From assembly GCA_949825045.1 (NCBI GenBank), contig OX463815.1:19771231-19835230 (forward strand): 64,000 bases of DNA, in the 5' to 3' direction. A model generated the notes under the pieces. It worked only from the letters and a program-made list of their open reading frames with translations. It was not told the DNA's origin and ran no database searches. A program made the translations under genes and the position numbers. Shown piece by piece: positions 43,030 through 55,119 of the stretch (its first letter is position 1; each line of letters opens with the position of its first letter). This stretch comes from Argyresthia goedartella. Lineage: Eukaryota > Arthropoda > Insecta > Lepidoptera > Argyresthiidae.

Positions 43030-43375
43030 GACATACACGCCGATAGGGTGACTGTTTCAGCTGAGGTAGAGCCGCTAGTGCCTGCAGACGCGTATCATCC
43101 GCCGTTAGAGGTGATATTCCAACGTATGGTAGATCCAACGCTTTATTTCTAACTCCGTAATTATTTAATTTCATTAGTAGCGTATCATGATCAACTCAAT
43201 CAAATGCCTTCGACAGATCGCAAAAAACTCCGACAGTATCCAGAGGCCGCACTGGCCTCTGCGCCAAAGATAGGCATCACAGTGCACCTCTTCTACACCC
43301 CTTTCCCCGCTGCTGGTATACTTTCTGAGCAGGTTTTTTAAAAATAAAACAGATGGCGTTGAAGTCATTACGGTA
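43030..43375 (-). pseudogene. LINE reverse transcriptase fragment
   Basis: The minus strand reads TVGVFCDLSKAFD-VDHDTLL-like text across a stop (43240-43185), then MKLNNYGVRNKA (43160), the motif A region of a jockey-type polymerase. The same segment appears alone at 25700-25785 and within 38690-38760. It lies just downstream of the eIF2B3 stop codon. Confidence 0.65.
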
Positions 43376-47820: not shown

Positions 47821-48718
47821 AAGTATTAACATTTTATATATATTTATTTTTTCATATTTAATTATATTTTAATTCATTTCAAGAGTTTGCAGTAGCAAAT
47901 GTTGGCGAAAATTACCATCATTCTTTATATGAACTTTCAGTTTCCCTTCCTTATGTACCTTGCCTTTATGATTCCACTTTGTAACGTTTTGAATTCCGCC
48001 TATATGTAACGTTATCAAATGAACGTAACGGTTTTATTTTCCTAAACTTGTTTTGTTGGTTTCTAGATTTTTATTTCATACTAGTAAAATACTACTTATT
48101 TATTAGATCAAGTAATCAGACGTGCAGTTGATGCATTTCAATTAAACAAAACTATAACTTATCTCAGTAAATTATGCGTTATAAAGTGGAAATATTTTTT
48201 CGTTTCGTTACTCGGCGCACGTTCTAACATAAATGGTGCAAACACAGAGCCTTGAAGCTAACTTTAGAATGGTATAATCAATAGAACATGTAATAGGAAA
48301 ATTAAAATGAATACTATTTAGAAGTTTATTTCTTCAAATTGTCGAGATATCGACGTTACAAAGTAGGAATTCCGCATATGCTTAAAGACGTGATACACGA
48401 TAAAAATTAAAAATAATTATACTTTTATCATTAAAACCCCTATAATTATGGATGCTTTATTGTCTATAGACACGGAGTCGGTGTTCCTATGCATGCGCAC
48501 CTGCATTGCCGCGGTCCTGTACAGCTCGCGAAGGGTATAGGCATATCGCATTTTTTATTTAGCACTATTTATTTACACATATATCTAAAACTTATACATA
48601 ACATTATTGTTACTTTTGATATGCATAAATATTCGTTGAAATAAAATATAGTTTTTCGTAAATCCGGGAGCACCGACACAGGCACGCCATCCTCCACGAA
48701 AACCACACTCAACTAACA
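47821..48718. other. No gene recognised
   Basis: AT-rich, with the phrase TTTGTAACGTTTTGAATTCC at 47978 and an inverted relative near 48350. No exon. Confidence 0.4.
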
Positions 48719-48916
48719 AGATCGCGGACGGAAGTAAGAAGCGTCAATTACTCGGGAATAGAAAAAAAAAAGGATAGCAAATATCGCACCTAATCTGAAA
48801 CAAAGTAAGTGCTATAAATAAAAAATCATAAAAAAATAAGCTGTTTCAGTGAGATATATTAAAAAAAAATTGTTAGCAATAACGATTGTCATGTCATACT
48901 CAGTACTACTGCGGTA
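48719..48916 (+). repeat. Dispersed repeat D, left half of the occupied copy
   Basis: Collinear with about 345-574 (CTAATCTGAAACAA, AATAAGCTGTTTCAG, ACTACTGCGGTA). Broken at TAATA by the DIRS element; the other half resumes at 53923. Confidence 0.75.
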
Positions 48917-48964
48917 TAATAGAGACGTTTTACCTGAAAATAAAACGTTTATTAAATACTTACC

Positions 48965-49154
48965 ATATTCAGGGCCTAATTAAAAACATGAGAAGACATC
49001 CTTGATTTTCAGTGCTAAACTAGTGACGTATATCCGGTCCGTCCGTTCCCGCCCCCGGATGTTCGGTTAAGCCGCGTGGTACCTTGTTTGCGCGCGCGCC
49101 CCACCACACCACCGAGGCAGTTCGGATTGTTGAATTCGAATTTAGCTTCATTGG
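48965..49154. repeat. DIRS inverted terminal repeat, 3' copy
   Basis: 190 bases from ATATTCAGGGCC to GCTTCATTGG, the exact inverse of 53715-53904 by my reading. Outside it is a 43-base extension (48922-48964, beginning GAGACGTTTTACC) that the other end lacks. Confidence 0.92.
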
Positions 49155-49189
49155 ATCTCTCATGTCCACCAGGCAGATTTAAAAAATAT

Positions 49190-49293
49190 TAGGCCCTGAA
49201 TATGGTAAGTATTTAATAAACGTTTTATTTTCAGGTAAAACGTCTCTATTAAATATCTTGACCGATATTCAGGGCCTAATTAAAAACATGAGA
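49190..49293. repeat. DIRS internal complementary region
   Basis: 49190-49246 is complementary to the element's 3' outer end (48922-48977: GAGACGTTTTACC...), and 49252-49293 is complementary to its 5' outer end (53876-53917: ...GATATT). They meet at GTCTC-TATTA-AATATC (49242-49257), which represents the joined ends of a circular copy. Confidence 0.92.
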
Positions 49294-49820
49294 GACGTGT
49301 TTGATATTGCCTGGTGTTGGTGGACGCTAATGTGATTCGTAAACATACATATTTAAATAAAAGTAGGTAAGTTTATGTTGTGACATACAGAAATTATGAA
49401 TGATTCAGGTATTTTGATAAACAAGTAAGTATCTATCTATAATTTATTCGGACTGATCGATGATCCCTTAGGAAGAAACCTAAAGTTTACATGTACTGTA
49501 TGTAGGTTAGGTTAGTACCTATGACTTATGACATTATTGTATCTGTTCTGTATTGCTTTCTGTTAAGATGAGGTGATTAGTGTGGTTTAAGGAAATAAAA
49601 TTAACTTGTAACTTATAAACAGGTATTATTATTCATCTTGATAGAACCTGCGTAGAAATGGTACCAAACCAGTAAATAAATTAGGTAGGTATTACTAAAA
49701 TCAGCAAATATAAATCAAACTTTGGAATAAAGTATTGAACAATACATAATTGTCTTGATTACTCGACAGGGGAGAATAGGTTCGGAATCAATGACACTCT
49801 TCTATCTCCAGATTTTACTT

Positions 49821-50590
49821 CTATTTGATAAAAATTTGGAAGGTTTTAGCAGACTTCCAGTTGCCTCGGGATAGTATGTCATCAATGGGAAAGTGTTCGA
49901 TCCAGTTTTTGGATGCAACAGCTGATCTGAAACTGCCAGGCGTAGCATTGATGTTTGCATCTTGAAGTAGTTTCTTCAGCCAGCCCCCTATGATTGTACG
50001 TGCAGCAGCTTTGGGGTCGCCTGTAGTACTCACAAACAGATTATCGCACTTAGCAGCAATTCGCCTAGGTTTCCCCAACTCAATGAGGCGGCGTATCCAG
50101 TAGATAGGATCCAGTGACTTGTCCTTATTCTTATTTAGCTTCCATCCCGATTGTTGATGGGTAATGGAGTCAGTTTTGGAGCCAAAAGATGGCCATAAGA
50201 TTATGCTGTCATCTGAAATAACACAGTGTTCCTGAGTAACGGTATTTAAAGTTAAATCGTGTACACGTCTACCCGAGCATAGTAGGAGTAAAGCAGCCGC
50301 TCTTTGAGAGGTGGCAAATAAACTTGATGAATTGCAGGTTCTTTTAGAAAGATGGTTTACAAGGGTGTCTATATCCCAGATGGGGGCTTTTATAGGTTTA
50401 GGCTTAGCTAACCCAATGGACTTTAGGACTTGTTTTACAAGTGTATGTGAGCTTAGCTTATTACTTTCACTGGGATCACAAAGAGTAGACACTACAGATT
50501 TATGAACAAGGATAGTGCTCTATGAAAGGCCTTCCTTTTGATGTAGATCAGTGAGGAATCGGGCCAGGTCTGAGCCTGTAGGTTTATGTG
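49821..50590 (-). pseudogene. DIRS tyrosine recombinase, inactivated
   Basis: The domain runs from LARFLTDLHQKEG (about 50580) through an in-frame TAG (50520-50522) to VHKSVVSTLCDPS, then the catalytic-arginine block ALLLLCSGRRVHDLTL, the second block GSFRSAVAS (H-x-x-R type, with S instead of H) and the final GNWKSAKTF. The catalytic tyrosine expected shortly after GNWKSxxTF is not in frame: the frame ends FQIFIK-stop, while the frame one base over carries F-Y at that place. This suggests a one-base loss in the A/T run near 49828-49836. In live elements this enzyme inserts the circular DNA copy. Confidence 0.85.
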
Positions 50591-50712
50591 TATGTACCTT
50601 GTGAGTTATGGCCCAGTTTCGCCAACGGGTTCAAGCTGGTTTATACGTATTCTCAGAGTGGATTCACGCCAGCTCGAACGGAGCAGAGCTTTTTGTTCCT
50701 CGCTCCAGTGAC

Positions 50713-52622
50713 TTAGGTGTTCTTGCCAACCCCACATCTCCATATCTCCAGCGTCATCTCCGATATGTTGGGGGGCGGACGTCCCGTCGTTACATCGACT
50801 AGGACCTGCGACAGGTTCCTTATCGTGAATGGGGGTGACAATGCGCGGCTCTTCAGGTCTGGTCTCCAGTAAACTTTGTGCCATCTCGGGGCTACGATCA
50901 GGTACACACCCAGTGCATTGTTTAAGTGCGTCAATATTCTGGGAATGAGATAAGGCGGCGGGAACAGCCATGCCAACTTGAAATCCCACTTGCTGCCTAG
51001 AGCATCGTACATGCTCGCCTGGTTGTCGGTTCTGTCCAGTGTACAGTACGTTGGAACCACGTGAGCTCTCCTGGAAGCAAAAATATCGATTACGGGGGTT
51101 CCCCACTTGGCAAACACGACATTTGTTATGTTTGACAGGAGATGCCATTCTGGTGGGTCTTTGAGACGTGATAAATGGTCTGCATCGCAGTTGTAGTTCC
51201 CTGCTATGTGATAGATGGACATGTGAATGTTGTTATGGTCCAGTACTTGTAGCACTTTCATTGCCAGCTCCGTAAGGGCTATAGATTTTGCCCCTCCCTC
51301 TTTTCTTAGATAAAAGACGAGAGTTTTGTTGTCGCACTGTATTAGCAGCGACTGTGAGCTCAGGAGCTGATAATGATGGCGTAAAACATTTAATATGGCC
51401 AACATCTCCTATGAAGGTTCTGCTGTGAGGGTAGCCATGAGCCTGTTATTGAGATTTCGTTTAATTTGGCCCCCCAGCCGATGTCGCTGGCATCTGTTGT
51501 TAGATAATGAGACGATAGTGGGACATGAAGTAGAGTACTCTACTGACAATTCAACTGCCACCATTCTAACTCGACTAGGGCTTTCGCAACTAGAGGAAAG
51601 GTTTTTGTCATCTTTAGTTTCAAGGCCTTGTTGGCCTGTAACTGTAAATACCGGTAATTTAGACGACCCCTCGGTACAGCAAAACTGGCAAAGTTCAGCA
51701 GGCCAATGAGACCTTGTAACTCTTTGACGGACGTTGTCCGTGTTATCAAGATTTTGGATACCGTGCAATGTATTTTTGCTACTAACCTCTGAGGAATGTA
51801 TTTCGCGTTCTGCCATGTGGTTGCAAACAGATTTGTCTGTGTTCACTTGCCAGCCTAGGTGGGCGAGCGTGTTCAGTGTCAACGACACTTGATTTATGAG
51901 AGTGGCTTTGTTTTGATGAGCCAGCATAAAATCGTCGAGATACACGATGATCCGGATACCGTGATCGCGGAGGTATTGTGCTATCCAGTTGGTGATTGAG
52001 GCGAATATTCTCGGTGCTGAACAAAGGCCGAAGGGTAGGCACGTCATTTCCAGTATTTGTGGGTTTTTGTCGCCGTACAGAAGGCGGAGAAACCTTCTGT
52101 AGCCTTCGAATACAGGGACATGGAAGTATGCCTGGTGAATGTCCACTTTGGCCAACCAATCCTTGGGTTGTAGAAAATCCGTTCCCCGATGAACATTTAT
52201 TAGTCTGAAAAGTCGAGTGTTGACGTATTGGTTCAGATTTTTTAAGTTGAATATGGGCCTCCATGTGCCGTCGCTCTTGGGGCGCAGGAATATCGGGGAA
52301 ATAAAGCTGGGCGCACCTTTTCTAGCACACCCTGCGAGATCGTGTTTTTCATTATTTTCGACATTTGTTCTGATTCTGGTGTTTTCACACTGCGACTGTT
52401 TGGAATGTGCAATGGTGGTTTCAACACAAAAGGAATGCGGGATCCTTGTATAATTTTTAGAATGTATGTGGGAGCTCCCAACTGTTTCCAACGATTGTAG
52501 TACATGCGGAGTTGTCCGGCGTGAAATTTTGCATGCATGTGCATGGCATAGTCTCCTATCCCGGTGGGATGAGGGAGAACGTCTGGGTTGATAATCCCTT
52601 CCTGACCTGTCGGGTAGACCAC
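50713..52622 (-). pseudogene. DIRS reverse transcriptase, RNase H and methyltransferase-like region
   Basis: RT N-terminal block [20 protein letters not shown] and [14 protein letters not shown] lies in one frame (52622-52320). After a shift near 52325 come [45 protein letters not shown] (motif A), [13 protein letters not shown] (motif B) and [12 protein letters not shown] (catalytic YLDD). Another shift near 51800 leads to [18 protein letters not shown], a TAG at 51540-51542, [12 protein letters not shown] (RNase H) and, after a shift near 51405, LLIQCDNKTLVFYL and GNYNCDADHLSR (RNase H). The final part, TPVIDIFASRRAHVVPTYCT then FKLAWLFPPPYLIPRILTHL and VAPRWHKVYWRP, is the methyltransferase-like region typical of DIRS. 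At least three frameshifts and one stop. Confidence 0.88.
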
Positions 52623-53523
52623 GGCCGCGTGAACCCCGCGCGCCTCGCCCGCGAAACGAATTATTATTTATCCTGCCTCGGGCCGAAGTATGATACTGGC
52701 TTTGATTATGATATTGCGCGCGATTGTTATAAGTTGCGGCCTGTTTCTGCGTCTGACTGCGGGTAGAAGTGGAAGTATTGTAGCGAGACTTTCCTTCCAC
52801 CCAAAACACATTTTTAACTCCACCCGCTTTTTCCAATAAAGCATTAAATTTGTCGGCTTCAAATAGATGAGAACCTGACGGCGCAATTTTGCGTAATGTA
52901 TTTTTGTGGTACTGGTCTTTTACTGATGAGAGTATGCCTTCTCTGCGATATTGAATAAGTTCAGCCCGGTGTCCACAGACGAGCTGGAGAGCGTCGTTTG
53001 AAATCTTGCTATACTCGTCGTCGGCATATCGGACGTTAATCCAGTCCTGGCTATTGAATCGCTGCAAATCTTTTAATTGTTGTGTTAGTTCGGGAGACGC
53101 CTGCGGTACAGCGGGCACCTTGATTTTTGTACCAGTAAAAATGTTAAGATCGACCTCGAAAGCCGAGTCAATGTTGGCGGGCTCGGACTCCTCAACGTGA
53201 CCTTCGTAGAGGTCTCCACTAACATTAGGGTAAATCAAGTCATGCCGTGGTTCACAATCATATTCGTGAAATTCCTGTGTAGCAGCAAGTTGACTTTTAA
53301 GATCTTTAATCTCGTTAAAAAGAAGATCGAACTTACGTTCCTTGATGCGTTTGCGCCGTCGGTACCGCTTCTTGCGATCGTCGCTTTCCGAGAAACTCAA
53401 CGAGGACGAACTAGAATTGTCGGAGTCCGAAGAGCTCACCGGTTTCCGCCTTTTCTTGCCTTTATCCTTACGCGCCGCCGAGTGCTCCAAACTGGACGGA
53501 ACCTCCGGGGTTTCTTGCTCCAT
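52560..53523 (-). pseudogene. DIRS gag-like protein
   Basis: Starts at ATG 53523 ([11 protein letters not shown]). It has a Ser/Asp-rich and Lys/Arg-rich N-terminus ([20 protein letters not shown]), a short coiled-coil-like stretch ([19 protein letters not shown]), a folded middle ([39 protein letters not shown]) and a Gln/Asn/Arg/Gly-rich tail ([13 protein letters not shown]), a nucleic-acid-binding style end. The uninterrupted frame runs on to 51409, but beyond about 52560 it is fused to reverse transcriptase text only because of a frameshift, so I end the gag here. Confidence 0.75.
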
Positions 53524-53714
53524 TTTACACAAACGAACGGTCACACCGTTGGGTATCTTTTATTTGCCTGCAATAAATCAGAAAATTCTAAGAAATTCTT
53601 TAACGAACAGTTGGTTATAATATGCAAAAAAAGTTCTCACGTCACGATGTATAGATTTTTGGCGGGCCGTACTCAGGAGCTGAGCAGCGACTGTGCCGTG
53701 CGAAAATCAAGACG

Positions 53715-53904
53715 CCAATGAAGCTAAATTCGAATTCAACAATCCGAACTGCCTCGGTGGTGTGGTGGGGCGCGCGCGCAAACAAGGTACCACGCGGCTT
53801 AACCGAACATCCGGGGGCGGGAACGGACGGACCGGATATACGTCACTAGTTTAGCACTGAAAATCAAGGATGTCTTCTCATGTTTTTAATTAGGCCCTGA
53901 ATAT
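53715..53904. repeat. DIRS inverted terminal repeat, 5' copy
   Basis: Inverse of 48965-49154. It contains the CGCGCGCGC run and, read on the minus strand, leads toward the gag start about 190 bases further on. The outer 13 bases (53905-53917) differ from the other end. Confidence 0.92.
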
Positions 53905-53922
53905 CGGTCAAGATATTTAATA

Positions 53923-54130
53923 GGAAAAAAAATAAAAAAAGGGTTGAGTTTGGATTTTCTTTCTATCGAGTTTTTTTTTAACCAAACACGTTTTCCAAAA
54001 TGAAAACCCTAGATTATATAGTCAAAATACATATAACAGAAATTGATAACGATTTGCTGAGTATTTCACGAAATACACAGAAAAACCCATCCTAATTTAT
54101 TTGCATAGCGTCTTAAACAAAAAGTAAAAT
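53923..54130 (+). repeat. Dispersed repeat D, right half of the occupied copy
   Basis: GGAAAAAAAATAAAAAAAGG, TTCTATCGAG, AGATTATATAGTCAAA and CGTCTTAA continue the match to 580-780. Confidence 0.75.
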
Positions 54131-54588
54131 TTTAGAAAAAAACGACTTCAATTAAACTCTATTTGTTACCAAAACATACCTCCGTACGTGTCTTTATTAA
54201 TTAAAGAGTTTTCCTCCCTTTTTTTCCTTGATCCCATCAGAGGAGGAGGATAAGTTGTTGAGAACGTCTCCTGGTACCTAGGTCACCCAACCATCACTGC
54301 CATTTCCCCATTATAGCTGAGAAGGAATTAATGAAACTTCATAGGAACCCGTGCACTTTGTGCCAAGTCTTTGAAGTTCAGTATGGTCTTACTTAGGTAT
54401 GGTCTTAAGGATTTAGGAAACCACCAGAACTTGTGCTTTTAAATTGATGGGCTTCTATCAGACACACTTTCTTGAGTAACAGCACTTTTTATAGGTTTTA
54501 GGATGTTTGGAATCCATTTCTAAGGTTTATAATTCAATGAATAGCCGTTCTTAACTATGTCAGAAATTAAAATTGTCGACTACACTTC
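54131..54588. other. No gene recognised
   Basis: No exon or repeat with ends. Confidence 0.4.
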
Positions 54589-54712
54589 GGCCGGGTTCAG
54601 AATGCGATTATGACATTTCCTTAATGCGCACATATATTAAGCAATATTTTTCATTGCAGATGTCAAAAATTTATGGGTTTTGAGCTGTCAGGATCGCATT
54701 CTCTCAGCGGCC
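54589..54712. mobile_element. Small MITE, 124 bp
   Basis: GGCCGGGTTCAGAATGCGAT and TGACA at the left face TGTCA, ATCGCATTCT and GCGGCC at the right. Confidence 0.75.
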
Positions 54713-55119
54713 AGACTTTAGTAAGAAGTTTTAGTACGCTAGCTTTTGGAGCCGGATTCGGTCAATTTCTAACCAAGATGCCAGATAATAAGTTATCAGA
54801 AATTATGATCTGTGTAAAGATCATTTATCAGCCACGATATGTCAAAAAATAAATAGGCGTTCTTCGATATGTCAGAAGACTTCATCATCAGTATTCAGTT
54901 CCACTTCACCAAGTGCAGATTCCAGATCCACGAACTACTATACAGTATACGAAAAGCGCTATAGGTATGCATTTATTATTTCTAGAACTTCGTCGTCGAT
55001 TTCTCCATGACCCATTATTAGGTCTTGGCTGACGTTAAGGCGTTGTTGAGCAGCTCTCCTGATACGTCACCATCACATCCACTTCACTATATGCATTATG
55101 ACTAGATTACTTTACTTAT

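Follow-up and report, generated by a model that had tools for sequence, protein, structure and literature searches.

How many bases do a DIRS element and its target share when the element is inserted, and which of these bases are brought in by the element? This question was raised by a retrotransposon at 48917-53923 (sense strand minus) of a stretch of 64,000 nucleotides from Argyresthia goedartella (contig OX463815.1, positions 19,771,231 to 19,835,230), which is called the window below. The element is a DIRS1-like (tyrosine-recombinase) retrotransposon, a defective copy from a young family for which the genome contains hundreds of candidate places. Its inverted terminal repeats (ITRs), its internal complementary region (ICR), a reverse transcriptase domain (RVT_1) and the homologues of its tyrosine recombinase agree with the assignment to DIRS in a preliminary description of the window, which placed the strand exchange within a five-base core, TAATA. 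The principle of an exchange at a core common to element and target was retained, but not its length, as the core was AAT in 34/34 border pairs. Very probably, the element inserts by strand exchange with the target at the shared 3-bp core AAT, with T-AAT-A preferred. Present ideas on target choice and joining by DIRS elements come mostly from a model based on few copies. Here, a young family with numerous, nearly identical members and with empty sites that can be read allowed the exchange to be fixed to three bases.

In the window copy, TAATA was confirmed to the base at the left border (48917-48921), at the right border (53918-53922), in an uninterrupted copy of the host repeat (575-579) and, as TATTA, in the ICR (49247-49251). 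The shared word is six nucleotides long in this copy, TAATAG or CTATTA (48917-48922, 53918-53923, 49246-49251 and 575-580). The ICR is formed by two pieces, 49188-49251 (64 nt) and 49246-49293 (48 nt), which are both 100% complementary to the termini and overlap by exactly 6 nt. TAATA occurs 304 times in the window (both strands), and thus the word alone proves nothing; the proof lies in its position at the two ends and within the ICR, together with the other copies.

The flanks of the element align to the uninterrupted repeat (357-775, site TAATAG at 575-580), as the preliminary description had proposed. The left part of the split host repeat (48730-48916) matched over 48730-48889 with 357-526 (73%, E 3e-19), and the right part (53918-54116) matched 575-775 (79%, E 8e-40). 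The final bases before the site could also be aligned (GCGGTATAATAG vs GCGGTGTAATAG). The ends and the ICR agree and an empty site is readable, but the copy at 575-579, earlier called the empty target, is a diverged paralogue (73-79% alike) rather than a pre-insertion allele. The host repeat is very abundant and young: the search gave 830 candidates, and the best 40 scored were all 99-100% alike, one of them being the window copy itself. The window's own site varied in five fetched paralogues (74-84%), which read TATAATAG, TGTAATAG, TAAAATAG (twice) and TATAAAAG.

The genome (1.1 Gb, 89 contigs) was searched with the left end (best 40 of 531 candidate places scored), with the right end, ending short of the border (best 40 of 473), and with the recombinase (best 150 of 1360). 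The search scores the best candidates only, and all copy numbers are lower bounds. The right end was readable within the stretch in 21 of 40 full-length stretches (39 fetched and the window), and the left anchor was present in 9 and 34 of two sets of 12 and 40 left-end stretches, respectively. The left borders read AATA followed by G in 49/49 cases (47 unique), with a preceding T in 34, A in 14 and C in 1. The right borders read TAAT in 49/49 (47 unique), followed by A in 43, T in 3 and G in 3. When the borders were paired, AAT was present on both sides in 34/34 and TAATA in 21/34; among the 28 pairs within 6.4 kb, the values were 28/28 and 17/28. In the pairs with a left base other than T, the element's T before AAT was kept at the right border (11/11), and in those with a right base other than A, the element's A after AAT was kept at the left border (3/3). 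The ICR core was identical in 40/40 copies, whether the left base was T, A or C, and in 6 additional stretches. As the outer bases vary and the ICR core is constant, the base before the left AAT and the base after the right AAT are not carried by the element. The expectation that other copies would show TAATA, or a variant identical to their circle core, at both borders did not hold for five bases (13/34 lack TAATA on at least one side) and held for three (34/34).

The first left sample, from the 39 fetched copies, was biased to TAATAG because its query contained this word, and further left ends were therefore taken through the recombinase gene. After the removal of duplicates and of L122, the flank of which is an inverted ICR of the same DIRS family, 38 unique left ends not selected for their border remained, of which 35 carried AAT, 2 ATT and 1 AAA.

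Empty sites of two insertions showed which bases belong to the target. For L012 (left border AAATAG, right border TAATAA), contiguous matches at 4/4 fetched places read CAAAATAAC. For L085 (left TTAATAG, right TTTAATGT), 4/4 fetched places were identical around the site, 2 of them over 153/153 bases, each reading GGTTAATGTATC. In both cases the empty site contained a single AAT and each border of the insertion had one as well, and the varying outer bases were those of the target. The limits of exchange in L012 (-1 to +2) and L085 (-3 to +1) together place the exchange inside AAT. These limits were read directly, as were the borders, the ICR core and the target bases of the two sites. In comparisons of flanks with the window and with each other, no clean alignment at the site was obtained for L036 vs L047, L038 and L045. 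The flank of L078 gave one window match across the site (88%, 43132-43236), which has AGT where L078 has AAT and is too distant to count either way.

T before and A after the core were in excess. T preceded AAT in 22/35 of the unselected left ends with AAT (A in 13/35), compared with 28% expected from the window (p 1e-5), and A followed AAT in 41/47 right borders compared with an expected 33% (p 3e-14). At -1 and +1, the favoured neighbours coincide with the bases of the element's own junction; at -2 they do not, A being found in 26/47 where the element has T. T-AAT-A is a strong target preference and not a requirement: identity is needed in the core, and a one-base extension on each side is preferred. 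T was also in excess, though less strongly, at the seventh base after the core in the right flanks of the 47 unique insertions (30/47), and this has no counterpart in the element's own junction.

Three independent insertions (L136, the C26 group and C10:8548554) carried ATT at the left border and AAT at the right border. L136 read ATT on the left and A-AAT on the right, and its five empty paralogues (91-95%) had ATT in 5/5. In the C26 group, six duplicated left flanks (98-100% alike) had ATT at the left border, AAT was read at the right in copy L125, and the six empty paralogues had ATT in 4, AAT in 1 and ATA in 1. A genome-wide pattern scan for a changed middle base gave 8 left ends, all with ATT and all from these three insertions, and gave no right end with such a change, the right pattern requiring the usual T and being blind to L136. 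The left core differs from the right one and matches the target, which does not fit a plain 3-bp duplication but fits a right-hand core that came with the element. In a strand exchange, a single strand lineage of the recombination product would be expected to look like this. The right-border core can differ from the left-border core and the target core, and the mismatched ATT/AAT cores thus supported the earlier claim that the element is flanked by copies of the core that do not come from a plain staggered-cut duplication. Natural insertions of this kind can separate recombination from duplication and may reveal the surviving strand. The six copies at C26:1.49-3.73 Mb share a left flank and differ in their right flanks, which corresponds to one insertion multiplied by segmental duplication; the right flank of L123 differs from that of its sister L125, and these duplicates have therefore been rearranged.

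It is possible, though doubtful, that the recombinase tolerates one core mismatch with a polar outcome, in which the left-border core (the element's 3' side) is that of the target and the right-border core that of the element. The polarity was seen in 3/3 independent insertions (the C26 group, C26:16929636 and C10:8548554). The same side in 3/3 has p 0.25 by chance (two-sided), and left vs right exceptions in the border samples gave p 0.085, so that the polarity is only a hint. If it is true, one strand lineage would regularly survive, as with single-strand exchange (e.g., a single-stranded joined intermediate), rather than two strands that segregate randomly.

Other explanations of the borders were weighed against the exchange at AAT. 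An ordinary 3-bp target-site duplication, from staggered cuts made strictly at AAT, would look alike in most copies, with one AAT in the empty site and one per border. This duplication is very improbable, as three independent insertions carry ATT/AAT cores and the empty paralogues of two of these sites are mostly ATT. It could be rescued by a single later A-to-T change in each ATT left border, but such changes are disfavoured by the match to the empty sites. Moreover, the ICR carries AAT between both end complements in 40/40 copies, and the element codes for a tyrosine recombinase. That the shared core is the 5-base word TAATA is true for the window copy and for 21/34 pairs, and T before and A after AAT are over-represented. 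Nevertheless, we regard this as highly improbable, since 13/34 pairs differ on at least one side though the ICR core is constant, and in the empty sites of both L012 and L085 the differing base is found in the target. As a requirement, a 5- or 6-bp core was ruled out by the borders of other copies, the ICR core and the empty sites, and TAATA stays as a preference.

A linear cDNA might also be inserted without the recombinase, by end-joining or homology-assisted repair at AT-rich microhomology, and the common stretch is indeed short and AT-rich. A study cited in PMC9210276 (Malicki et al., 2020) also speaks for such repair. Its title reportedly names linear single-stranded cDNA intermediates. 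However, the borders were base-uniform in 34/34 pairs, no small deletions or filler were seen there, and nothing was lost or gained where two sets of empty sites join, which makes this route extremely improbable.

Several observations weigh against an exchange at AAT. The window copy cannot separate a 3-bp from a 6-bp core, because its target matches the junction over 6 nt. Six of the 34 border pairs (L018, L022, L025, L080, L081 and L084, one of them a segmental duplicate) were joined by position and orientation and depend on position over 9.6-13 kb, and 3/38 unselected left ends were not AAT. Visible empty sites were found for 2/13 joined sites searched (among the best 40 matches listed per search, all of one repeat). 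The right end of L136 has A in place of the element's usual T just before AAT. L137 reads AAA on the left and AAT on the right, with AAT in 4/5 of its empty paralogues, and the left AAA is probably a later change. Finally, the right end of L009 is aberrant, and this copy was left out of the right-border count by the anchor rule. Its right terminus breaks off as GGTCAAGATTGAATGCAC before the core and represents an aberrant or later changed border.

For the exchange at AAT, the following order of events is proposed. Joining of the cDNA ends, which the published model ascribes to copying from the ICR, would produce the junction ..GATATTT-AAT-AGAGACG.. This junction would then be paired by the recombinase with a genomic AAT, preferably T-AAT-A, and strand exchange would take place within the 3-bp AAT or at its edge. 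The bases of the target would remain outside the core, with one core at each border. A closed-circle intermediate, the recombinase as the agent and the order of strand exchange are what we infer.

The accessible part of Piednoel et al. (2011; PMC3266345) describes a 3-bp circular junction that is identical to a genomic word, without duplication, and ATT ends as the most frequent ones in DIRS1-like elements. The elements of this type treated there, such as DIRS-1 of Dictyostelium, likewise have ITRs, an ICR that complements both ends and has its overlap at the junction, end extensions of unequal length and a recombinase gene. The sense ends ATT/ATT with the junction AAT, the commonest type in its table, match the Argyresthia family, and integration at an identical 3-bp genomic word without duplication is likewise proposed. 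The earlier remark that insertion sites of DIRS elements are "rarely this explicit" was thus overstated, as the 3-bp junction-target identity was already described for the superfamily in that text. In contrast to it, the word was tested here on 34 border pairs and two empty-site sets, the preference reaches one base on each side, and a one-base difference from the junction was seen in a few targets. The 3-bp junction matching the target is already known; what is added is base-level resolution, the flanking preference and the mismatched-core cases.

According to the accessible part of a review (PMC5633606, after Cappello 1984), DIRS-1 enters its own copies without apparent sequence preference, in contrast to the T-AAT-A preference of this other family. 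Crypton DNA transposons also have a tyrosine recombinase, and their direct end repeats of 4-6 bp are thought to be the recombination substrate (PMC3212892, accessible part); they lack a reverse transcriptase and the ITR/ICR, and their repeats are longer than here. PAT and Ngaro are likewise tyrosine-recombinase retrotransposons, with split direct repeats instead of ITRs and an ICR. Neither mismatched-core insertions nor the T-AAT-A preference were found to be described in the accessible parts of the literature searched (including PMC3266345, PMC5633606, PMC2685390, PMC9210276, PMC3783388 and PMC3212892), which is weak evidence of absence since subscription papers (Cappello 1985, Goodwin and Poulter, Poulter and Butler, Malicki 2020) were outside its scope.

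These results give a practical rule for the annotation of DIRS borders, namely that the base outside AAT is host DNA. In the window copy, the left border TAATAG (48917-48922, plus strand) has its core AAT at 48918-48920, T 48917 is the target's and AG onwards is the element's. At the right border TAATAG (53918-53923, plus strand), with the core AAT at 53919-53921, T 53918 is the element's and A 53922 onwards is the target's. The left terminus (48917-48980, plus strand) is 100% complementary to 49188-49251, and the right terminus (53876-53923, plus strand) is 100% complementary to 49246-49293. These copied complements make up the ICR (49188-49293, minus strand), with the joined-ends core CTATTA at 49246-49251 and ATT, which is AAT on the other strand, at 49248-49250. 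The ITR consists of a left arm (48965-49154, plus strand) and a right arm (53715-53904, minus strand), both of 190 nt and 100% complementary to each other. No split direct repeats (A1 ... B1 A2 B2) were found in 48000-55000, where the long repeats are inverted and the sole direct-repeat family is a 29-nt pair that is part of the terminus and the ICR.

The coding regions all lie on the minus strand. A 711-aa open reading frame (ORF; 51409-53544) combines a basic N-terminal, gag-like part with the reverse transcriptase (RVT_1, E 3e-18). It is followed by a 230-aa ORF without a Pfam match at the position of the RNase H region (50713-51405) and by a 223-aa tyrosine recombinase fragment (49821-50492). 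The fragment has no Pfam match itself, and its relative P0023 matches Phage_integrase below the cut-off. Its 44 homologues are DIRS-type tyrosine recombinases, and the named ones, including "Tyr recombinase domain-containing" proteins, are mostly from moths and butterflies, with one from a psyllid. In the alignment, the GRRVHDL and SFRSA blocks were conserved, and the C-terminal tyrosine was present in most relatives, which read ..KFY, and missing in the window copy, which ends FQIFIK. The window copy is therefore defective, as its recombinase reads off before the catalytic tyrosine and several frames are broken. The three ORFs of the window copy that were scanned with Pfam showed no integrase domain and also gave no match to a methyltransferase domain, the copy having broken frames.

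The co-variation of termini and ICR among copies was also compared. There was almost no variation, the fuzzy anchor was off by some bases in several rows, and nothing was inferred. At one and the same position, the left terminus of L017 (GACACG) and the ICR of L024 (TGTCT) are changed in a complementary way, which may be a trace of copying between these two copies or may be chance. In L122, L151 and L174 (C11:8561000-8562730), a left end abuts, at the core, an inverted stretch of this family's ICR and downstream sequence, with another terminal piece preceding it. This represents either a copy that was rearranged or an element inserted into the ICR core of a resident one.

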